The position numbers were made by a program, and so were the translations under genes. Positions 1,348 to 12,784 of a stretch of DNA of 12,784 nucleotides are shown piece after piece. Source of the stretch: Candidatus Gribaldobacteria bacterium (lineage in GTDB: Bacteria > Patescibacteriota > Minisyncoccia > Minisyncoccales > CG1-02-41-26); contig JAPLWD010000082.1 in assembly GCA_026396775.1 (NCBI GenBank), positions 1 to 12,784 on the forward strand. The letters run 5' to 3'. The notes beneath the pieces were generated by a model, which was not told the origin of the DNA, did no database searches, and worked only from the letters and a program-made list of their open reading frames with translations. The stretch's first letter is position 1, and the number at the start of each line of letters is the position of its first letter.

Positions 1348-2199
1348 CTATTTTGGCCAGTTTTCAACCATTAAAGAATCCTTCTCTTTGTTCGGTAACA
1401 TCTGATAAACTTGCTCGGTAATAAACGGCATAAAAGGATGCAACAACTTCATTGACTCTCTTAAAACATACATAGGAGGGTCAATTTGTTTTTTACTAGC
1501 CTCGATATAAATATCACAAAAAGAATGCCAAAAGAAATGATAGGCTTTTTGGGCTGCCTCGTGAAACTGAAAATTCTCGATATCCTTAGTAATTTCAGCA
1601 CTAGCCTCCTTGAGTAAGTTTAGGATTACTTCATCGGCCTTAGTCTTCGTTATTATTACTTCCTTATCTGATTTCTGCTTCAAATCATTGGTTTGCTGTA
1701 GAACAAACCGGCTCGCATTCCAAATTTTATTAGTAAACCTCCTTTGAGCAATTATTTTATCCTCGGCAAAAGCAATATCTTGGCCAGGCGAATTAGCAAA
1801 CACCAAAGCCATCCTTAAAGCGTCTGCCCCATATTGATCCACTACACCCAAGGGATCAACTACATTACCCTTACTCTTGGACATTTTCTGCCGATCTTTA
1901 TCACGAACCATTCCATTAAGATAAACATTTTTAAAAGGCACCCGTCCTGTCACATAAATTCCCAGCATCACCATTCTAACAACCCAAAAAAATAGTATAT
2001 CCGATCCTGTTTCCATTACACTTGTTGGGTAAAAATATTCAAAATCACCCTTGTTTGCATTTTGCAAGGTAACAAATGGCCACTGCCCCGAAGAAAACCA
2101 AGTATCAAACACAGCCCCACTCTCATCTCCTGGAATTGGAATACCCCATGGAATTTGACGCGAAATATTCCAATCTCTTAATTTTTCCATCCATTGCAA
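1348..2199 (-). CDS. valS: Valyl-tRNA synthetase, C-terminal part of a split gene
   Basis: This frame carries the second half of the class I synthetase catalytic core and the anticodon-binding domain. RDWNISRQ (8-15), DTWFSSGQWPF (32-42), SDILFFW (66-72) and KMSKSKG (105-111) are all present; KMSKS is the ATP-binding loop. Helical anticodon-domain sequence follows to the end at VENWPK. No C-terminal coiled-coil arm follows; the gene ends with TAG-TAA in frame. The apparent TTG start at 2199 is not a real initiation site but the point where homology enters this frame from the upstream part; the frame is open back only to 2211. Between GIPIP and DTWFSS there are only about eight residues, where most ValRS have roughly 30-60, often with a zinc ribbon. 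The gene is unmistakable; whether a functional protein is made is uncertain. Confidence 0.9.
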   Translation of the reverse strand: MQWMEKLRDWNISRQIPWGIPIPGDESGAVFDTWFSSGQWPFVTLQNANKGDFEYFYPTSVMETGSDILFFWVVRMVMLGIYVTGRVPFKNVYLNGMVRDKDRQKMSKSKGNVVDPLGVVDQYGADALRMALVFANSPGQDIAFAEDKIIAQRRFTNKIWNASRFVLQQTNDLKQKSDKEVIITKTKADEVILNLLKEASAEITKDIENFQFHEAAQKAYHFFWHSFCDIYIEASKKQIDPPMYVLRESMKLLHPFMPFITEQVYQMLPNKEKDSLMVENWPK

Positions 2200-3310
2200 A
2201 AGGTTTTTCAGTCATCTTTATAAACCACTGATTATCCATTAAGGTTGGCTCAATCACCGTGCCACATTTAAAACAGCAAGCCACATTATGCTTATATTTA
2301 TAATCAATCTCTGTTTCATCTAACAGCCCTTTCTCAACCATATCCGCGACTACCTTTTCCCGTGCTTCAGCCACTTTCATCCCCTGATAAATTCCGGCTA
2401 ACTCATTCATTTTGCCATATTTATCAATTACCACTTTAGGTTCTGGAATTTCAGCTTTGTGTCTTTGCCAGGTTTCAAAATCAGCAAAATCGTGGGCAGG
2501 GGTTACTTTTACAGCTCCCGTTCCAAATTCCATATCCACCGACTCATCCGCAATCACTTTAATTTTGGCCTTCCCTAAAACTGTTTCCACCTCAACCTCT
2601 TTGCCCACATAGTCCTGATAGCGTTGATCTTTGGGGTTAACCGCAATGGCTGTATCGCCAAACTTGGTTTCGGGTCGAACCGTCGCCAGCTTAAATGAGC
2701 CATATTTAATGTAATATAAAGGGTCTATCCGTTCCTCATATTTAATCTCTAAATCCGAAAGCGAGGTTTGATGTTTAGTACACCAATTAACTAGCCGACT
2801 GCCTTTATAGATTAGATCATCCTGCTTAAGTTTTTCAAAAGTTTGATAAACTGTTTGAATAATATCTTGATCTAAGGTAAATTTCTCTCTAGTCCAATCG
2901 CACGAAGCCCCCAGCTTTTTAAATTGACCCTCCATTATTTCCTTATTCTTTAGGGTAAATTCCATCATCTCCTTTAAGAGCTGATCTTTAGGTACTTCGT
3001 TTCTTTTGCGACCTTCTTTCTCCAATTTTTTATCAAAAACTACTTGAGTCTCAAAGCCAGCGTGATCAGCTCCAGGTAGCCACAGGGTGGCCTCTCCTTG
3101 CATGCGGTGATAACGAACCATAATATCCTGCAAGGTTACAAATAAAGCATGCCCAATATGCAAAGCGCCGTTGGCATTGGGAGGAGGCATTATAATGCAA
3201 AAAGGCTTCTTGGTTGAGTCAATTTTGGGCGTAAAATACCCGCTCTTTTCCCACATTGTATAAATTTTTTCCTCAAATTCCTTAGAATTATAAACTTTAT
3301 CAATTTCCAT
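2123..3310 (-). CDS. valS: Valyl-tRNA synthetase, N-terminal part of a split gene
   Basis: Attaches valine to tRNA-Val in the cytoplasm. This part holds the N-terminal half of the Rossmann fold with HIGH (H51-I-G-H54, in the MPPPNANGALHIGHA block) and the whole CP1 editing domain (TVRPETKFGDTAIAVNP, then GTGAVKVTPAHDFADFE), which removes mischarged threonine in this family. Valine specificity over Ile/Leu is judged from the PPPNANG-LHIGHA and PAHDF patterns. Homology continues through MDNQWFIKMTEKPFA (to about residue 372, near 2195); the last 23 residues, ending at the TGA at 2123-2125, are out of frame and not family-like. The expected 25-30 residues between this point and the W-M-E-x-x-R-D-W block are missing, so the break is a deletion as well as a frame change. 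ATG 3310 fits the family start; no Shine-Dalgarno is visible. Confidence 0.92.
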   Translation of the reverse strand: MEIDKVYNSKEFEEKIYTMWEKSGYFTPKIDSTKKPFCIIMPPPNANGALHIGHALFVTLQDIMVRYHRMQGEATLWLPGADHAGFETQVVFDKKLEKEGRKRNEVPKDQLLKEMMEFTLKNKEIMEGQFKKLGASCDWTREKFTLDQDIIQTVYQTFEKLKQDDLIYKGSRLVNWCTKHQTSLSDLEIKYEERIDPLYYIKYGSFKLATVRPETKFGDTAIAVNPKDQRYQDYVGKEVEVETVLGKAKIKVIADESVDMEFGTGAVKVTPAHDFADFETWQRHKAEIPEPKVVIDKYGKMNELAGIYQGMKVAEAREKVVADMVEKGLLDETEIDYKYKHNVACCFKCGTVIEPTLMDNQWFIKMTEKPFAMDGKIKRLEYFASNSMGYSNSRR

Positions 3311-4623: not shown

Positions 4624-6420
4624 ATGCAACAAAAAATTCAACAATGCCCCGCCTTCGCTAAAGCTAAGGCGGGCAAGCAGATCTGCCAAAATTGTAAAAT
4701 AGAATTTATAATAGAGCCAGCGGATTTTGATTTTTATGAGAAGACTAAAGTTCCCTCCCCTACCTGGTGCCCAGAATGTCGCGAGAGGAGAAGGCTAGTT
4801 TTTCGCAATGTAAATCATCTCTACAAAAGGACCTGCAATCTTTGTGGTAAAAATATAATCTCTAGAATATCGCCTGACAAGCCTTACACGGTTTACTGTT
4901 CCAAATGCTGGTGGTCAGACCAATGGGATCCATTGGGCTATGGTAAAGAATATGATTTTTCTAGGCCATTTTTTGAGCAATTTCAGGAGTTAATTCTCCA
5001 AACCCCACACGTTGGCGTGTTTAATGCCAACAACATTGATAGTGAATGGGTTAATCACGAAACCGATGATAAAAATTGCTATTTAAACTTTGGCGGACAC
5101 TTTAACGAAAACTCCGCCTACAACGATTTTGAAATGAAAGGTAAGAGTTGTTTTGATAACTATTGGATTTGGCAATGTGAACTTTGTTATGAAAATATAA
5201 ATTGTGAGCGTTGCTGGAAAACCTTTTTTTCTAGAGATTGTTTCGATTGCTTGAGTGCCATCTTATCCAGCGACTGCCGAAGCTGTCAAAACATCCTTGG
5301 TTGCTCAGGTTTAAGGAATAAACAATATTGCCTTTTTAATCAGCAGGTTTCTAAAGAAGAATACCAAAAATTTATTAATGATAACCCCTTAGGGTCATCG
5401 AAAAAACTAGCTGGACTAAAACAAAAAGCTTACGCAACTTGGGTTTTAACTCCTAAAAAATACTCTCAAATCTTAAAATGTAATAATGCTAAAGGATGTT
5501 TTATTACAGAGTCAAAAAATGTCGAAAATGCTTGGTATGCTGATAAATCAGAAGATTCCAAACATCTTTTCATAACCGCTTCAATAAAAGACTCTTACGA
5601 TTGCTCCTCGCTCGGCTGGGCAGAATCTTGTTATGAAATGGGGCATTGCGTGGGCGTAGGAAGTTCTAAATTTTCAGCTTTCGTTTTAGGTGGAGGATCA
5701 GCTGAAGTTATGGGTGCTTTTAATCTGCAATATTGCTTGGCCACGCCTTCAACCAGTGATTGTTTTGGCTGTTGCAATTTAAAGAGTAAAAAGTATTGTA
5801 TTTTAAATAAACAATACACTAAGGAAGCGTACGAAGAATTGGTGCCTCGGATTATCCAGCAGATGAATAACCTGACCTATATTGATAAAAAAGGCAAAAC
5901 CTATAAATATGGTGAATTTTTTCCAATAGAGCTATCCCCTTTTGGCTACAACGAAACAAACGCCCAAGATTATTATCCTCTTACCAAAGAACAAGCTATC
6001 TCTCAAGGATTTAACTGGAGCGATTATGACCCTCAAATTAAATATGAGTTCTCCAACTACCAAATACCTGACAATGTCCAAGATGTTCAAGATGATATTT
6101 TGGAAAAAACTTTAAAATGCGAAATTTCTGGTAAGGGCTATAAAATCATTCCAATGGAACTCCAATTCTATCGCCAAATGAACCTGCCTATCCCTAAAAG
6201 AGCGCCCCTACAAAGGCACGTCGACAGAATGGCTCAACTATTACCAAGAAAACTATTTAAACGCCAATGTATGCGCCAAGCAACCCAAAGGAACAGCAGA
6301 CCTTCCCAGACTCATGAATATGGCGATGGAGCCTGCCCTAATACTCTTGAAACTCCCTACTCTCCTGATCGACCCGAAATTATCTATTGCGAAGCCTGTT
6401 ATCTTAAAGAAATCGCTTAA
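4624..6420 (+). CDS. Cysteine-rich zinc-ribbon protein of unknown function
   Basis: A 598-residue protein with 36 cysteines, many in CxxC pairs. The N-terminus has two predicted zinc ribbons: C21/C24 with C49/C52, and C71/C74 with C92/C95, the latter including SPDKPYTVYCSKC. Then comes a W-W-S-D-Q-W-D-P / F-S-R-P-F-F-E-Q-F block. The middle (about 155-410) is a run of rungs with regularly spaced Cys and aromatics. It contains an internal duplication: NKQYCLFNQQVSKEEY recurs as SKKYCILNKQYTKEAY. This suggests a solenoid or beta-helix made of two similar halves. The C-terminus carries another ribbon ending YSPDRPEIIYCEACYLKE. There is no signal peptide or membrane segment. I recall proteins of this layout as common in Patescibacteria, without known function. 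Residues 6-19 look like a palindromic insertion. Nucleic-acid binding is plausible but unproven. Confidence 0.85.
   Translation: MQQKIQQCPAFAKAKAGKQICQNCKIEFIIEPADFDFYEKTKVPSPTWCPECRERRRLVFRNVNHLYKRTCNLCGKNIISRISPDKPYTVYCSKCWWSDQWDPLGYGKEYDFSRPFFEQFQELILQTPHVGVFNANNIDSEWVNHETDDKNCYLNFGGHFNENSAYNDFEMKGKSCFDNYWIWQCELCYENINCERCWKTFFSRDCFDCLSAILSSDCRSCQNILGCSGLRNKQYCLFNQQVSKEEYQKFINDNPLGSSKKLAGLKQKAYATWVLTPKKYSQILKCNNAKGCFITESKNVENAWYADKSEDSKHLFITASIKDSYDCSSLGWAESCYEMGHCVGVGSSKFSAFVLGGGSAEVMGAFNLQYCLATPSTSDCFGCCNLKSKKYCILNKQYTKEAYEELVPRIIQQMNNLTYIDKKGKTYKYGEFFPIELSPFGYNETNAQDYYPLTKEQAISQGFNWSDYDPQIKYEFSNYQIPDNVQDVQDDILEKTLKCEISGKGYKIIPMELQFYRQMNLPIPKRAPLQRHVDRMAQLLPRKLFKRQCMRQATQRNSRPSQTHEYGDGACPNTLETPYSPDRPEIIYCEACYLKEIA
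4639..4681 (+). repeat. In-frame GC-rich palindromic insertion in the zinc-ribbon gene
   Basis: CCCGCCTT (4648-4655) pairs perfectly with AAGGCGGG (4666-4673); the centre adds a GCT/AGC match. The segment encodes residues 6-19 (around PAFAKAKAGK), which separate MQQKI from the CQNC of the first zinc ribbon. Removing it would leave a natural MQQKICQNC start. It is far more GC-rich than its surroundings. The 3' flank GGCGGGCAA recurs in the hairpin at 10072-10090. Confidence 0.6.
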
Positions 6421-6484: not shown

Positions 6485-7450
6485 CTATTTGTCCCTTTTA
6501 ATCACAAAATCAGCCAAACTTGCTAAAACATTTCTCCATTTACTCGCTGGCAACGAGTTTAAGCTACTTTGAGCTTTTTGAACTAATTTTTCCTTTAAAA
6601 TTTCAGCTTTTTCTTGAGCCTTTGTTTGACTTAAAATCACTATCGCCTTTTTAATATCTCCTGGTTTAACTTTTTTACCCTTCAAAATCCCTAAAATTAT
6701 ATCTTTATTTTTGCCCTTTAACTCTTCAAGAGCATAGATCAGTATGATATTGCCCCCCTTATGCTCCTCTAAGTCTTTGCCTACCTTCTTACCAAACTTT
6801 TCTTCGTCGCCAAACATATCCAAAACATCATCTTGAACTTGAAAAGCCAAGCCTAAATTCAACCCATAATTACGCAAAGCTTTTAATTTTATCTCGTTAA
6901 CCCCTGCCATCAAACCTCCAACTTCACAACAGGTCTGCAGTAAAAAGGCTGTTTTTCTTTTAATCATTTCAAAATATTGTTCTTCGGATATCTCTGATGG
7001 GCGTTCTTTAACTATAAAAGGCTCATTTTCTCTACCTATCCGTTCAAATAAAATATCATCAATCTCACCATCAACTACAACCTTAAGAGCTTTAGCAAAA
7101 ATAAGAGCCACTTCTTTTGGTTTTTTGGATTGAGCAGCAGCGCTTAAAAATGAGGCAGCAAAATCAGCTTCGGTGCATTCCGCCATTGAAGACCCATATT
7201 TTACCTGAATTGTCGGCTGACCCCGCCTAACCTCCCCATGGTCAATAGTATCATCTAATATCAATGTATAGTTATGCAGGATCTCCAAACCAACGGCTGG
7301 ATACAAAGCATCCTGTAGCTTCCCACCCATAGCCAAACAAGATACTAAACACAAAAAAGGCCTTAAACGCTTTCCACCGGTAGCTACTGGATACTTAAGC
7401 ATTTCGTGAAAACGCGGATCAACCTGCTTAATCAACAACTCATTTAACAC
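6485..7450 (-). CDS. Polyprenyl diphosphate synthase (trans-type, short to medium chain)
   Basis: A 321-residue all-helical prenyltransferase that condenses isopentenyl diphosphate onto an allylic primer. GGKRLRP is at 25-31; the first aspartate motif is D66-D67-T-I-D70, followed by the R-R-G-Q-P-T block. The second is D207-D208-V-L-D211, with GKD (224-226) downstream. The first motif has no two-residue insertion, and Tyr61 is five residues before it. By the rules worked out for this family this points to about C15-C20 product, as in archaeal GGPP synthases; that is inference. The product may feed carrier lipid or quinone synthesis, which fits its place 46 bp after murC. The listed start is GTG 7450. 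An ATG at 7484 is out of frame by one base, and the in-frame residues before the GTG (KIEP) look family-like, so the true N-terminus may lie upstream. Confidence 0.9.
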   Translation of the reverse strand: MLNELLIKQVDPRFHEMLKYPVATGGKRLRPFLCLVSCLAMGGKLQDALYPAVGLEILHNYTLILDDTIDHGEVRRGQPTIQVKYGSSMAECTEADFAASFLSAAAQSKKPKEVALIFAKALKVVVDGEIDDILFERIGRENEPFIVKERPSEISEEQYFEMIKRKTAFLLQTCCEVGGLMAGVNEIKLKALRNYGLNLGLAFQVQDDVLDMFGDEEKFGKKVGKDLEEHKGGNIILIYALEELKGKNKDIILGILKGKKVKPGDIKKAIVILSQTKAQEKAEILKEKLVQKAQSSLNSLPASKWRNVLASLADFVIKRDK

Positions 7451-7496: not shown

Positions 7497-7847
7497 TTAA
7501 CTAACTAATTGATCAGCTAGTTTATAGATGTCACCTGCTCCCATAATAACCAAAATAGAATCTTGAGGCAAGTTCTGGGCTAAATATTTCCTTAACTTAC
7601 TTTGAGATTTATAAATAACCGATTCTTCACCTATATCCTTTACCAGTTGCTCCGAATTAATAGCCTTTTTTATATCCATCTGCTCCCTTCCAACGACATC
7701 GTATATATCCGTAATAATTATTCTATCCAAACTAAAGTCTTTTTGGGCTGTTTTAAACACCTTAACAAATTTATCTCGCAAATAAAAAGTGCGCTGATAT
7801 TGATGAGGCTGAAAAACCAGCCAAACCTTCTTATTTTTAATCTGACA
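7497..7847 (-). CDS. murC: UDP-N-acetylmuramate--L-alanine ligase, C-terminal part of a split gene
   Basis: This frame carries the C-terminal (ligand-binding) domain of MurC. It includes VWLVFQPHQYQRTFYLRDKF, then the conserved block D-R-I-I-I-T-D-I-Y-D-V-V-G-R-E and a final VIMGAGDIYKLADQL, which matches the usual MurC ending. The frame is open from 7847, where a TAG precedes it. The first start-like codon is a TTG at 7781, but homology begins well before that at about KNKKVW, so a TTG-initiated product would lack the F-Q-P-H-Q segment. It is one frame away from the N-terminal part. It is not expected to work alone, because the MurC active site is built from all three domains. Confidence 0.85.
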   Translation of the reverse strand, partial: CQIKNKKVWLVFQPHQYQRTFYLRDKFVKVFKTAQKDFSLDRIIITDIYDVVGREQMDIKKAINSEQLVKDIGEESVIYKSQSKLRKYLAQNLPQDSILVIMGAGDIYKLADQLVS

Positions 7848-8736
7848 CTACAGTATGTTCATAATCAGCAATAACCATTTTTTTCAACTCAAACCGACGC
7901 CAAATGCCCTTGTACTGCCCCAAAGCTTTCAAAGTAGTCTCCTCCCCTATTTTCAAAATTTGAGCCACTCTCAAGGCAGCTAGAGCGTTAAGAGTATTAT
8001 GTTGGCCTGGCACATTTAAAACTTCCTTAGTTTTCTCAATTTCTTGATCTTTTAACGAATAGTAAACTATTTTAGCTATTAAATTAGAATCTTCTATCAC
8101 CTTAACTATATTTTTGTCGTCTTGATTAGCCACAATATAATCCTTAACTTGGGCAACATATTGACCAAAAACTTTCAAGATATGCTCTAAATCTTGAAAA
8201 AAGTCCATATGCTCCTCTTCTATATTAGTTAAAACCAAAATATTGGGGTGATAATTCAAAAATTTAGCTTTATAATCATCCGCTTCAATAATTAAGTATT
8301 TGCTTTTACCCACTCTCCAACCCGGCTTAGTGCCGATAATAAAGGTTGGATCTAGCCCCGCCTCTATTAGCACTTGGGCGATCATTGAACTAGTAGTTGA
8401 TTTTCCGTGCATCCCTGAAACCGCAATCACAAAATAATCTTGACATAATTGAGCTAAGGCTTCTGCTCCCGCTAGACATTTAATCCCTAATTTTCTAGCT
8501 TGGTTTAGTTCTGGGTTTTCGTCGGGCACCGCCTCACTGTAAATTACCAAATCGGTGTCATTAGCCACTTGGCTCTCTTGATGCCCAAGATAAACTAAAA
8601 TCCCCTGCTCTTTTAATTGCAAAGTTACCTCGGATTCTTCAGCGTCCGACCCTGTAATTTGATGGCCTTTTTGCTGATAGACACACGCTATCCCTGAAAT
8701 TCCAATCCCACCAATCCCAATAAAATGAATTTTCAT
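7837..8736 (-). CDS. murC: UDP-N-acetylmuramate--L-alanine ligase, N-terminal and central parts of a split gene
   Basis: MurC adds L-alanine to UDP-MurNAc, the first peptide step of peptidoglycan synthesis, in the cytoplasm. The first Rossmann domain starts at once with MKIHFIGIGGIGISGIA. The ATP-binding domain has a P-loop written GMHGKSTTSS, with Ser where GTHGKTTT is usual. N-I-E-E-E-H-M-D, PGQHNTLNALAA and G-I-W-R-R-F-E follow, all diagnostic of the Mur ligase central domain. Homology stops around ADYEHT; the family continues D-Y-x-H-H-P-T-E and about 15 more residues before the F-Q-P-H block. Here only a short unrelated stretch and a TAA (7837-7839) intervene. So some 15 residues are missing and the frame shifts by one. 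ATG 8736 is clear, without a Shine-Dalgarno. An inverted-repeat element lies 29 bp upstream. Confidence 0.92.
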   Translation of the reverse strand: MKIHFIGIGGIGISGIACVYQQKGHQITGSDAEESEVTLQLKEQGILVYLGHQESQVANDTDLVIYSEAVPDENPELNQARKLGIKCLAGAEALAQLCQDYFVIAVSGMHGKSTTSSMIAQVLIEAGLDPTFIIGTKPGWRVGKSKYLIIEADDYKAKFLNYHPNILVLTNIEEEHMDFFQDLEHILKVFGQYVAQVKDYIVANQDDKNIVKVIEDSNLIAKIVYYSLKDQEIEKTKEVLNVPGQHNTLNALAALRVAQILKIGEETTLKALGQYKGIWRRFELKKMVIADYEHTVVSD

Positions 8737-9131: not shown

Positions 9132-9752
9132 TTAACTCAACCTGTCAACTGTGGATAACATTTTAAATTCTTGAAGTAGTTTATACTCCGAACCAGAGCG
9201 TTTTAAAACACTTTCCATTAAATCAATTGATTGCACTTGAAAACTTAAATCCATTTCCGTTTCAATATTAGGTCTTTCTTCGGGTTCAATTTTTTTCCAA
9301 ACCCACTCTTTAATACGAGCTAAAGTAATGTGAGGAGAAAAGCCTCGATTGTCAACTTGATGTAAAATGCCTTGCTCATTAATTTTTTGACTAAGCATTT
9401 TACTTAAACATTCTAAATCCATATTTTTAACTACCCTTGCCCAGATAAAACGCGGTGGTATCAATTTGGCTGGGCCATAACAAATTTGATCAATCTTAAC
9501 TTCAAACTTTTTCCACCCTAAAACACACTCTTGAGTAATTCGAGTAACTTTTTCTATTTTTTCTTGACTTATTTCACCAACAAAAAGCATCGTGATATGC
9601 AAATTTTCAGGTATAACCCACTTAGCCACATACTCACCCGACTCATCTGGAAATGAATTCTTTAAGTCGCTTTGTAATTCTCCTAAATTATTTTTAATTT
9701 CAGCTGGCAAATTAACCGCTAAAAAAATTCTTTTTGTTAACAAATTACCCAT
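9132..9752 (-). CDS. thpR: 2'-5' RNA ligase family protein (RNA 2',3'-cyclic phosphodiesterase, ThpR type)
   Basis: A 206-residue member of the 2H phosphoesterase superfamily. Both signature motifs are present: H52-I-T54 (LHITMLFVGE) and H141-I-T143 (SPHITLAR). They are about 90 residues apart, as in ThpR/LigT, where the two histidines open 2',3'-cyclic phosphate ends or act reversibly on 2'-5' RNA linkages. The N-terminal R-I-F-L-A-V-N-L-P and the W-V-I-P-E-N lead-in to the first motif are also typical. Length is a little above the usual 175-190, with an extra tail after about residue 185. The start ATG 9752 overlaps the end of the transporter gene by eight bases, so translation is probably coupled. 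A terminator lies about 170 bp downstream. The physiological RNA substrate in bacteria is not settled. Confidence 0.9.
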   Translation of the reverse strand: MGNLLTKRIFLAVNLPAEIKNNLGELQSDLKNSFPDESGEYVAKWVIPENLHITMLFVGEISQEKIEKVTRITQECVLGWKKFEVKIDQICYGPAKLIPPRFIWARVVKNMDLECLSKMLSQKINEQGILHQVDNRGFSPHITLARIKEWVWKKIEPEERPNIETEMDLSFQVQSIDLMESVLKRSGSEYKLLQEFKMLSTVDRLS

Positions 9753-9999
9753 ATTTTAATTTAAAAAGTAAAATTAAAAAATTCAAAAACACACTCGCAA
9801 TATTGGCCAAGATTAAAGGAATATCGTGTAATAAAAAACCATAAACTAACCACAAGCCAACGCCAATGGTTACTAAAACATAAGTCCCCAAAGATAGATC
9901 TTTGGTTTGTTTAGTTTTAATAGTTTTAACCACCTGCGGAATAGCCGAAGCCGTAGTTAAAACCCCCGCCAACAACCCCAATAAAGAAATTAATAACAT
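9745..9999 (-). CDS. SemiSWEET-type (PQ-loop/MtN3) sugar transporter
   Basis: An 84-residue membrane protein made of one three-helix bundle, the size of bacterial SemiSWEETs, which dimerise to form a sugar-passing pore. Three hydrophobic segments cover about residues 3-20, 40-55 and 60-80. The P21-Q22 motif follows A-S-A-I at the end of helix 1. The KTKQTKDLSLGTY loop and the L-W-x-V-Y-G and L-I-L-A-N segments match characterised family members closely. I chose ATG 9999. The frame remains open upstream to 10155, but those codons run through the GC-rich palindromic element and encode nothing family-like. No Shine-Dalgarno is visible. The substrate is unknown; a small neutral sugar is the family default. 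It overlaps the next gene by eight bases. Confidence 0.88.
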   Translation of the reverse strand: MLLISLLGLLAGVLTTASAIPQVVKTIKTKQTKDLSLGTYVLVTIGVGLWLVYGFLLHDIPLILANIASVFLNFLILLFKLKYG

Positions 10000-10029
10000 A
10001 CTGAAATAACAAGCTAACAAAGGGGCGAG

Positions 10030-10153
10030 GAAAGTATTTTCAAGGCGCACCTCGAGCCCTGTTGGCACGGTCCCGCCAGCAGGCGGGCAACAGGAGCGAG
10101 AGCTGAGCGAAGTCCCCCGCTGGGGGGACGAGCGTCGCCTTGAAAATACTTTC
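10030..10153. repeat. 124-bp inverted-repeat element with nested hairpins
   Basis: Perfect 18-bp terminal inverted repeats, GAAAGTATTTTCAAGGCG at 10030-10047 and its complement at 10136-10153. Inside are a two-part stem, CCTGTTG/CAACAGG (10058-10064 with 10088-10094) enclosing CCCGCC/GGCGGG (10072-10077 with 10082-10087), and a separate GTCCCCC/GGGGGAC hairpin (10112-10118 with 10123-10129). An AATACTTTC motif is duplicated just outside the right arm (to 10162). It fills most of the gap between the helicase and transporter genes and encodes nothing convincing. Confidence 0.75.
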
Positions 10154-10197
10154 AAATACTTTCCGAGTCCCGTCTAGCTTAGATTGTTTATCATACC

Positions 10198-12784
10198 CTA
10201 TTCTTCGTCGGCCACAAAATGACAAATATCTTTAAAATCACAAAACTGGCAATGGAAACCAGGAGTAGCCTTAAAATTACTACACTTAATCTGCTCAATT
10301 GTTTTTAAAATTTGATTCTTCAGTTTTTCCTTTTCAGCCTGTGTGCCCAAAAAAGAAATACTAGATCCGTCTTCTAGATAATAATAGCTAAGCTCCACTG
10401 GGTTTAAACCAAAAACCTCTTCGGCAGCAATTTGATAAATTAAAAGTTGAGTTTTATTTTCAGGTTGCAGTTTTTCTTTTTTACCACCAGTCTTATAATC
10501 CACAATTCGCACTTGGCACGCTGAAGCTTCAGTGGAAGCGGCTTGGCACGCCATAGCTATGGCGGAGGAGGATGCCACTTGCTCTAAGCGATCAATTTGC
10601 CCGTTAATAAGATACTCCCCTATTTTTAAATTAAAACTTTTTTCTAATCCCAATTCATCGCCAATTTTTAAAATTTGAGGCGGATTTTTAACAAACTGCT
10701 TATGAAAATTAATTAAAACTTCTTTGCCCAGCTCCCAATATTCTTGCTTTTGTTTTTTGTTTTGATACCATTCATCAATCCAATTTTTTTCGTAGATTTT
10801 TAACAATTCAGCCACATCCGAAAAATCTTTCTTCACTAAATCTTGGGGGCTAACCTTAAAACCAAATAAATTTTCAACCTTCGTGGATGATTCTTGGTAA
10901 TATAATCTTGCAAATTCGTTTAAAGTGCGATGAATACTTTGCCCAAAAGAAAAAACAGCCTTACCCTTAACAGGCACCTTTAAAATATGGGCTAGCTTAT
11001 ACTGATACGGGCATTTCTGAAAAGCCGCTATTTGCGTAAAAGAAAAATGATACGGTAAGGGCCACTGCTCAATTTTAACACCAGCTAATTCTTGTGATGC
11101 TTCTTTTAGCTCAACCATTTCCTCTTTGGTTTTTTTAGATTTTTCCTGAACGGCCAAACCCAGAACAACAAAAAATAAAGAAGGTTTTTTACTTAACTGT
11201 CCTCCGTAATTATCTGCCCAAGTTAAAAATAAACTTTTTTTGGCTCGAGTTAAAGCCACATAAAAAAGTCTCCTTTCTTCTTGCAAATGAACATCACCTT
11301 CGGGCTCTTCTTCTTTAGCTAAAGCCTCAGGAATTTCAATGGGATCTTTTCTTTCGGTAGATGGAAACCTTCGGTCAACCAGACTTACTACAAAAACATA
11401 TTTAAACTCTAAACCCTTAGCTGAATGAATCGTCATTATTTTTATCATCTCTGGGCCCTGTTCGGGATCAAATTCTAATTTACCTTGCTCCCCTCCTTCG
11501 AGTTCCCAATTAAATTGACTCAAAAAACTTTTCAGCGAACAATCTAGAGCCGACTCTTCAAAAGATTTTATCTTTTTATGAAATTGCACCAATAAATCAA
11601 TCTCAAACAATTTATCGTTTTCAGTTAAGTATTTTAAATACCCCGAATCATTTAAAAATGAAACAAAAATTTGAGAAGCCAAATAAGTTTTAGCCAATTC
11701 GGTATGTTTACTAATTAAAGTTAAAAGCCAAGCCACCTTACTAACGGTTTTGGGTTTAATGTTTTTAACGAAGGATATTTTTAAAAGCGTTTCGTAAACC
11801 GACAAACCTTTGCGATGACTTTCACGAGTAATCAACATAATATCCTCGTTACTAATTTCCAAAAACGGCCAGCTTAAAATGCGATACAAGGCTAGGCTTT
11901 CGTGATAATTGTCTAAAATTTTTAAGTAAGCTGTAGCATCCAAAATAGCTGGCTTTTGATAAAGACCCCGAGAGGCTAAAAACTGATACGGCAAACCTGC
12001 TTTATCTAAGGCCTTCGCAAAAGGCGTAGCTGAATTGTTAGCTCGTACTAAAATAACAAAATCATTTGGATCAACCGTTTTGTCTTTTTTTAGAATCCCA
12101 GCTATTTCTTCAGCCACTCCCCTTGCCTCCTCTTCAAGTGATTTAAAATGTAAATATTTAACTTGGCCTTGATCTTTAATTTGAGCCTGCAGTTTTTTAT
12201 CAATTTTAGATAAATACTCTAAACGATTGGGGTTATTCGCTTGAATAAAGCGATAAGCTAAATCTAAAATTGTCTGTCCCGAGCGATAATTTTTCACCAA
12301 GTAAACTTCAGTCACTTTTGGAAAATCATTTTTAAATTGGTGAATATTGCTCAACGAGGCGCCCCGCCAATTATAAATAGCTTGATTGTCGTCACCACAA
12401 ACTGTTAAGTTTTGGCTTTTTTGAGCTAAAAGTTTAATTAATTCGTATTGAGCCTTATTAGTATCTTGAAACTCATCCACTAAAATATATTTAAATTTTT
12501 CTTGATACTTTTTTAAAATGGCTGGGCGTTTTTGAAATAATTGTAAGCAATAATTAATTAAATCACCAAAATCTAAAAAATTATTTTCCAATAAAATTCG
12601 CTGATAAATATGATAAGCGTTGGCGATTTCTTTTTGCCGTTCTATCTCGGCATTCTCTGGTAAATCATCCAAGCTGGTTTTTAAATCATCCGCATATTGC
12701 AAATACTGTTCAGGGTAAATCATTTGATCCTTACAATGCGAAAAATGGCTTAAAAGCGCTCGAATAAATTTATTGGGATTGCCC
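10198..12784 (-). CDS. UvrD/PcrA-type helicase fused to a RecB-like nuclease, N-terminus beyond the window
   Basis: A superfamily 1A helicase with a C-terminal nuclease, likely in recombination or double-strand break processing like AddAB/AdnAB. The frame is open to the window edge; the Walker A part lies outside. Numbering from the ATG codon at 12723: DEFQDTN (83-89, motif II), CGDDNQAIYNWRGA (109-122, motif III), KNYRSG (motif IV), TIHSAKGLEF (motif V) and FYVALTRAK (motif VI). The C-terminal 250 residues form a PD-(D/E)XK domain: FQKCPYQYK, GQIDR (708-712, D711) and VDYKTG (741-746, D742 and K744), then a CxxCx5C cluster near the end (HCQFCDFKDIC). Together with the CPYQY cysteine this gives four cysteines, as in iron-sulfur AddB/Cas4-type nucleases. 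Residues 716-737 are a palindromic insertion between GQIDR and VDYKTG. It lies upstream of the transporter gene and ends in TAG. Confidence 0.92.
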   Translation of the reverse strand, partial: GNPNKFIRALLSHFSHCKDQMIYPEQYLQYADDLKTSLDDLPENAEIERQKEIANAYHIYQRILLENNFLDFGDLINYCLQLFQKRPAILKKYQEKFKYILVDEFQDTNKAQYELIKLLAQKSQNLTVCGDDNQAIYNWRGASLSNIHQFKNDFPKVTEVYLVKNYRSGQTILDLAYRFIQANNPNRLEYLSKIDKKLQAQIKDQGQVKYLHFKSLEEEARGVAEEIAGILKKDKTVDPNDFVILVRANNSATPFAKALDKAGLPYQFLASRGLYQKPAILDATAYLKILDNYHESLALYRILSWPFLEISNEDIMLITRESHRKGLSVYETLLKISFVKNIKPKTVSKVAWLLTLISKHTELAKTYLASQIFVSFLNDSGYLKYLTENDKLFEIDLLVQFHKKIKSFEESALDCSLKSFLSQFNWELEGGEQGKLEFDPEQGPEMIKIMTIHSAKGLEFKYVFVVSLVDRRFPSTERKDPIEIPEALAKEEEPEGDVHLQEERRLFYVALTRAKKSLFLTWADNYGGQLSKKPSLFFVVLGLAVQEKSKKTKEEMVELKEASQELAGVKIEQWPLPYHFSFTQIAAFQKCPYQYKLAHILKVPVKGKAVFSFGQSIHRTLNEFARLYYQESSTKVENLFGFKVSPQDLVKKDFSDVAELLKIYEKNWIDEWYQNKKQKQEYWELGKEVLINFHKQFVKNPPQILKIGDELGLEKSFNLKIGEYLINGQIDRLEQVASSSAIAMACQAASTEASACQVRIVDYKTGGKKEKLQPENKTQLLIYQIAAEEVFGLNPVELSYYYLEDGSSISFLGTQAEKEKLKNQILKTIEQIKCSNFKATPGFHCQFCDFKDICHFVADEE
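10511..10570 (-). repeat. Two tandem 30-bp palindromic units inside the helicase-nuclease gene
   Basis: Units 10511-10540 and 10541-10570 share 20 of 30 positions, including CTTGGCACGC and the central AGCT. Each holds a 16-bp palindrome: CGCTGAAGCTTCAGTG (10519-10534, one G-T pair) and CGCCATAGCTATGGCG (10549-10564, perfect). The three arm positions that differ between units change on both sides so that pairing is kept. The insert is in frame and encodes about 22 Ala/Ser/Cys-rich residues, with ACQ repeated. Confidence 0.8.

Follow-up and report, generated by a model that had tools for sequence, protein, structure and literature searches.

The 12,784-bp stretch of DNA analysed here (hereafter the window; positions 1-12,784 of contig JAPLWD010000082.1 in the 750-kb assembly GCA_026396775.1 of a Candidatus Gribaldobacteria bacterium) contains, inside the gene for a helicase-nuclease, two adjacent 30-bp units that are very probably copies of a short dispersed hairpin element, which landed in frame in the host gene and of which the hairpin is the copied unit. 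A repeat family with a covarying fold occurs across bacterial phyla and, in frame, in many genes of Patescibacteria, housekeeping genes among them. Its fold consists of an unpaired 5' CTTG tag, a 6-bp outer stem that mostly carries a single-base bulge, an internal loop of 3x3 (GWA/GRA), which presumably forms sheared G-A pairs, and an inner hairpin of variable length, and the element appears to be a so far undescribed relative of the known mobile palindromes. The relevant features are as follows, with unit positions counted from 10512 as position 1 and E values given for a covariance model, R1, searched against the source genome:

10512-10541, plus strand: CTTG hairpin unit 1 (E=1.3e-4).
10542-10571, plus strand: CTTG hairpin unit 2, with a decayed outer stem (E=0.002).
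4648-4677, minus strand: third copy of the family, unbulged (E=4.3e-6), in frame near the N-terminus of the open reading frame (ORF) 4624-6420.
10198-12723, minus strand: host gene, a UvrD-type helicase with a C-terminal PD-(D/E)XK nuclease (Pfam PF12705 at residues 559-835).
10588-10602, minus strand: GQIDR nuclease motif, intact.
10486-10503, minus strand: VDYKTG nuclease motif, intact.

Read on the minus strand, the insert keeps the frame open and lies between GQIDR and VDYKTG, neither of which is damaged and both of which we take, from general knowledge of the fold, to carry the metal ligands of the nuclease; the insertion site is presumably a surface turn, and the reading frame of the host gene continues past the edge of the window. 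A first-pass annotation of this DNA had placed the units at 10511..10570, which is right as to two adjacent 30-bp units (70% identical, at a spacing of 30) and one base too early as to their start.

The R1 model was built from 15 copies, none of them from the window. In the source assembly it finds, besides the two units and the copy at 4648-4677, matches at C69:5588-5651 (E 1e-4) and C8:3647-3678 (E 0.007), and six further weaker ones, all at E 0.1 or more. A 30-bp class pattern allowing one mismatch returns 30 matches, the window's two included, in 19 of the 147 genomes of the order, against none for the same pattern reversed. An exact-pattern search of a collection holding one genome per species matched at least 117 stretches; the phyla among the matches listed, on which the analyses of 121 copies described below rest, comprise Bradyrhizobium and other Alphaproteobacteria, Deltaproteobacteria, Acidobacteria, Verrucomicrobia, Planctomycetes and many Patescibacteria. 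A second model, R2, which was used for the relatives, the TatD loci and the ortholog loci, detects at least one copy at E<=0.01 in 23 of 40 related genomes (the source genome included), with a range of 0-18 per genome and no copy at that threshold in the same-genus genome G001; at E<=0.001, 13 genomes chosen for holding a copy have from at least 3 to at least 65 each. Some loci hold tandem 30/31-bp arrays and inverted pairs.

None of the Rfam families fits as the identity of the element: the whole window is without a match in Rfam 15 at the gathering score, and the array at locus L190 and window positions 10480-10620 match only far below it. Carriage by phages, plasmids or E. coli was likewise rejected, as the 31-nt consensus matched nothing in phages or E. 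coli, and plasmids gave eight weak matches (E up to 1); a pattern search of viral sequences matched two viral contigs. At the left flank, one base is identical to the element end in 70 of 105 cases, compared with 50 with shuffled flanks, and two bases or more in 20 compared with 13; a target-site duplication was rejected, the excess of identity being one base only.

The host protein was matched in 25 of the 40 relatives' genomes, and the alignment covers the insertion site in 22 loci besides the window's own. The insert is missing from 21 of these 22 orthologs, among them that of G001 (76% identity) and that of locus L065, whose loop is about four residues longer. The remaining ortholog (L060, genome G011) carries at the same place a different Ala/Ser/Cys-rich palindromic insert of the same net length (54 nt), which has no R2 match even at E 10 and was therefore left out of the family; it is independent of the insert in the window. 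The first-pass annotation had interpreted the peptide between the two intact motifs as an in-frame insertion of a structured element, like the Rickettsia palindromic elements (RPEs), and had proposed an ortholog alignment and a covariance-model search of the genome and its relatives as checks. Both came out in its favour, the insert being absent from nearly all orthologs, the model built from outside copies matching both units, and other genes and genomes carrying copies; an Ala/Ser/Cys-rich loop in all orthologs with no copies elsewhere, which it had named as fatal to its proposal, was found on neither count, L060 alone having a differing insert of that composition.

The fold of the family pairs positions 5-6 with 30-31 and 8-11 with 26-29 in the outer stem, with the bulge at 7, and 15-16 with 21-22 in the inner hairpin. 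When all column pairs were scanned over the 121 listed copies, 5-31 ranked first, being Watson-Crick in 112 of 121 (C-G in 77, G-C in 35), and 11-26, which alternates between C-G and T-A, ranked fifth; ranks two to four went to pairs that involve the flanks, notably position 0 combined with 31 or with 5. On 31 distinct copies, with 17-20 added to the fold, 95% of the cells pair, five pairs have two-sided changes and the covariation is 0.239 as against 0.122 for shuffled alignments, a value that none of 500 shuffles reaches and that collapses when the fold is slid; for further pair types, the observed value was equalled in 31 of 500 shuffles. RNAalifold returns the same fold unprompted, minus the 17-20 pair. 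Several letters were fixed by the search patterns, which left some pairs little room to vary, and the covariation evidence is carried by 5-31 and, in single copies, by 9-28, 10-27 and 11-26. Unbulged copies have other complementary stems around the same loop (TCCTCC/GGAGGA, CCCTGC/GCAGGG), and alternative inner hairpins occur at the same place, e.g., GTCC-AAA-GGAC and GCTCC-CGCA-GGAGC. A less constrained scan, in which the inner hairpin was left free, yields 154 hairpins as against 15 in the reversed sequence, its clear cases having longer inner hairpins with the outer frame kept; the tag reads CTTG in 135, CTTT in 14 and CTTC in 5 of them, in a scan that demanded CTT followed by G, T or C in loci mostly selected for CTTG. 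No conserved letters were seen after the stem.

In the window, unit 1 has the CTTG tag, all six outer pairs (5-6/30-31, with position 31 being the next base, 10542, and 8-11/26-29), the bulge at 7, the internal loop GAA/GGA and the inner pairs 15-17/20-22, of which 15-22 is G-T. Unit 2 retains four of the six outer pairs, and the two are imperfect members of the family. The pair 11-26, which is compensatory in the family test, is T-A in unit 1 and C-G in unit 2. The copy at 4648-4677 folds by itself as the family fold (-11.1 kcal/mol, z -3.9, as DNA) and has a decayed counterpart (R2 E=0.012) at the corresponding site of both the same-genus ortholog L294 and a paralog, L308; it is an older insertion than the units at 10512-10571. 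The protein of its ORF, 4624-6420, is 598 aa long, carries cysteine-rich motifs, matches nothing in Pfam at E 0.001, and belongs to a multi-copy family with 11 matching stretches in G001 and nine in G026.

Among 70 copies from Patescibacteria, 31 have 150 or more flanking codons in the ORF around them, and 26 have 15 or more on either side in a long ORF; these 26 occupy five of the six frames (15, 4, 3, 2 and 2). Four of 31 loci holding R2 copies (29 of relatives, two of the source genome) are too short to judge; 18 of the other 27 are in long ORFs, a set that overlaps partly with the earlier one. Pfam names 20 host proteins, including tRNA synthetases, RecG, GyrB, NusA, DnaK, Fpg, RuvA, S2, sigma-70, S-adenosylhomocysteine hydrolase, a MiaB-like enzyme, a class V aminotransferase and a RecJ-like DHH protein; some of the in-gene copies are N-terminal, where the gene start may be misplaced. 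With five frames and both orientations in use, the peptide is hardly the selected unit. In TatD, 5 of 29 sequences have a hairpin at one loop, with five different inserts in five genomes, that of G023 being in reverse and that of G072 in forward orientation and those of G027, G017 and G007 having longer inner hairpins. R2 matches all five in place (E 5e-9, 5e-5, 0.019, 0.039 and 0.022; nine loci, 37 kb), the same search giving besides them two decayed copies of the 4648 type and one match at E 4.5. In G015, TatD has four extra residues and no hairpin, and in the source genome its loop is empty; because G023 served as the query and G072 was included for its element, the less biased count is 3 of 27.

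Outside proteins, 8 of 122 copies overlap a tRNA or lie within 10 nt of one, compared with 0.7 expected by random placing, though the GGCGG end of the pattern may favour tRNA starts. At seven places (L102, L122, L127, L132, L140, L181 and, in the source genome, C14:10322), the 3' stem of the element overlaps the first bases of the tRNA, often CGGG, and CGGG often precedes the CTTG tag there too, so that the tRNA start appears duplicated. Another copy (L090, 7073-7103) is inside an RNase P RNA gene (RF00010 at 7028-7445).

Intragenic tagged palindromes, even in such genes, are not new: the main text of PMC3733652 (Di Nocera, De Gregorio and Rocco 2013) reports repetitive extragenic palindromes (REPs) from within the genes for UvrD, RecBCD and tRNA synthetases, recB of two Xanthomonas having them at roughly one and the same position, and it places GTAG- and CGTC-tagged REPs in more than 80 species, the GTAG ones being thought to be moved by REP-associated tyrosine transposases (RAYTs). 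As described there, GTAG REPs, and GTAG-3 especially, resemble the CTTG element in being tagged hairpins of 20-40 bp with alternative complementary stems and dimers or clusters, and in GTAG-3 unpaired di- or trinucleotides lie, as in the CTTG element, between the stem and a GC-flanked, possibly self-complementary loop (PMC3733652). They differ in their tag and in the RAYT-flanking copies that the CTTG element lacks, and the latter, unlike them, is often intragenic in the Patescibacteria sample. The CGTC REPs, including RPE-4 and RPE-6 of Rickettsia, are similarly small, tagged, intragenic (in R. conorii) and without an associated transposase gene, but the same main text gives them a CGTC tag, stems of 8-9 bp, loops of 4-5 bp and a short tail that is mostly CCA (PMC3733652), whereas the CTTG element has a 6-bp stem with an internal loop and an inner hairpin, and nothing conserved after the stem. 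Neither CTTG, CAAG nor any of the Patescibacteria names looked up occurs in the main text of PMC3733652, the consensus sequences of which stand in its figures.

The CTTG element, dispersed and 30-31 nt long, falls within the 20-40 bp of the hairpin repeats that make up the tagged REP super-families and has their alternative complementary stems and dimers or clusters; its unpaired terminal tag is neither GTAG nor CGTC, and because it departs from them in tag and RAYT flanks it is not filed with either, although by analogy it would work like a tagged REP. In miniature inverted-repeat transposable elements and the hairpin ends of IS200-IS605, a short guide-like tetranucleotide likewise stands at the foot of a bulged hairpin; the CTTG element differs from these in having no terminal inverted repeats, no transposase gene and no clear target duplication beyond one base. 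RPE-1 and similar elements, presumably unrelated to it in sequence, are also palindromes inserted in frame in proteins, and the CTTG element shares with RPEs in general the in-frame insertion, absent in orthologs, into genes whose function is judged from open frames and intact domains. The RPE-1 type differs in consisting of "longer palindromic insertions" (PMC3733652, main text). A literature search that reached few subscription papers found no description of a CTTG-tagged family, its internal-loop architecture or its in-gene abundance in Patescibacteria.

Several observations weigh against reading the units as copies of such an element. The helicase has gained 18 codons net, not 20, so that the 20 codons of the units were not simply added to an ortholog-like loop, and the TatD inserts seem to replace a few residues; the insertion was, accordingly, either not clean or later trimmed. 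Most copies were found by patterns fixing some letters, and conservation there is partly built in. Folded alone as DNA, units 1 and 2 and the 31-nt consensus favour other pairings, unit 2 (inner palindrome CGCCATAGCTATGGCG, perfect) taking the one proposed in the first-pass annotation at -6.2 kcal/mol (z -2.9); its single-sequence RNA fold has a z of -1.9 for this strand and of -2.2 for the opposite one, and the two units folded jointly do no better than shuffles. Both units, moreover, are perfect as inner palindromes, compared with only 2 of the 121 listed copies elsewhere. The preferred fold of unit 2 and the two perfect palindromes would suit the inner palindrome (TGAAGCTTCA / CATAGCTATG) being the conserved structure, and its three complementary pairs are indeed present at 11-13 / 18-20 (TGA with TCA in unit 1, CAT with ATG in unit 2), as is the fourth, which was found at 9-22 (G-T in unit 1, G-C in unit 2). 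In the family, however, its arms vary independently, the two perfect copies comparing with 2.3 expected by shuffling, and on the 31-copy alignment its covariation is 0.094 as against 0.102 when shuffled; it was rejected as the family fold on both tests, and we hold it to be very improbable as a conserved structure, although it could apply within a small local subfamily. Across the family, the bases of the three compensating pairs fall at variable positions of the internal loop, the apical loop and the stem. Of the earlier view that the pairing and not the peptide is conserved, the part on the peptide stands, given the five frames in use, whereas the pairing has to be replaced. It is scarcely credible that the units are an ordinary lineage-specific low-complexity loop produced by local slippage, with a merely compositional likeness elsewhere; their tandem arrangement and Ala/Ser/Cys-rich peptide would fit, as would several non-Patescibacteria copies that appear to sit in intergenic short repeats, but the pattern matches against an empty control, the R1 E values and the unrelated host genes do not, and the family-wide covariation of the stem largely refutes it. 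A role of the hairpin in RNA-level control (mRNA stability, tRNA processing, pausing), for which selection would keep it and which would make the in-gene insertion functional, accords with the G-U pairs in the stem, the tRNA adjacency and the copy in the RNase P RNA gene; it is nevertheless improbable for an element that almost all helicase orthologs lack at this site, that is missing from 24 of 29 TatDs, that occurs in unrelated genes in both orientations and that belongs to no Rfam family.

The remaining points, for and against, concern the enzyme that would copy the hairpin. Over 40 genomes, the copy number correlates with the number of Y1_Tnp genes (Spearman 0.46, taking no account of phylogeny or genome size; p 0.18 within the window's own family and 0.004 in other families), and Y1_Tnp is found in 16 of 23 genomes with copies and in 4 of 17 without (Fisher p 0.0095), seven of the 23 thus having none. 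PF01797 is present in seven of eight copy-rich genomes, and Bradyrhizobium macuxiense, with at least 26 copies, has no match to it. Only one of 37 Y1_Tnp loci, taken with about 1.5 kb on each side, has a confident copy, on which ground the element was rejected as a flank of RAYT genes. The source genome has two RAYT-like genes, with NCBIfam RAYT matches of 21 and 26 bits against a cut-off of 80, and when hairpins next to RAYT-like genes were sought, the gene itself was recognised in two of 19 loci, both in this genome (L218, 3587-4324, contig C101; L219, 1505-2209, contig C78); the hairpins flanking these two genes are long, nearly or fully perfect and unrelated to the element. The link to an enzyme is statistical only, not a physical one. 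That a RAYT or another HUH enzyme acts on the element in trans is possible, if on balance doubtful. It is rather unlikely that the element belongs to a true REP/RAYT pair, as a CTTG-tagged REP that a dedicated RAYT alone would copy, since the near absence of copies from Y1_Tnp loci, the case of B. macuxiense and the deviating tag all speak against this, even though the tagged bulged hairpin, the tandem and inverted copies, the Y1_Tnp and PF01797 counts and the RAYT-like genes of the source genome would be expected of such a pair.

If the units are copies of a dispersed hairpin element, it would have landed in the helicase-nuclease gene either as a tandem or as one copy that was then duplicated, at a turn joining two strands of the nuclease, where a stop-free multiple of three bases would be tolerated. 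It may persist there because it is nearly neutral, with the hairpin and not the peptide being what is copied; more speculatively, an HUH/Y1-type, RAYT-like enzyme might copy the single-stranded hairpin in trans, as proposed for GTAG REPs. We regard it as an even call whether the CTTG hairpins form a third, unnamed super-family of bacterial mobile palindromes over many phyla, which in Patescibacteria insert preferentially or persistently in genes, reshaping essential proteins repeatedly at the same surface loops and tRNA genes at their ends, by means of an enzyme not encoded alongside. Patescibacteria genomes are small and gene-dense, and yet such hairpins lie inside gyrase, RecG, NusA, aminoacyl-tRNA synthetase, RuvA and TatD genes; if the family is mobile, it provides a steady supply of in-frame insertions of about ten residues and, with that, a natural experiment on protein tolerance. 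For annotation, peptides of the type A-S/F-A-K-A-S/T-A should be read as the repeat and not as a protein function, and the hairpin offers a testable substrate for orphan HUH enzymes.

Elsewhere in the window, the inverted repeats GAAAGTATTTTCAAGGCG / CGCCTTGAAAATACTTTC enclose a GC-rich intergenic element at 10030-10153; downstream of it lies a SemiSWEET-like gene, the true start of which is probably inside ORF 9745-10155; in genome G014 (locus L217), three tandem units of the CTTG type end beside a similar CTTGAAAATACTTT. On the minus strand, a class I tRNA synthetase (read as valyl) and a Mur ligase, at 1348-3310 and 7497-8736, each appear as two ORFs that overlap or adjoin and differ in frame, as a frameshift or an assembly error would produce.

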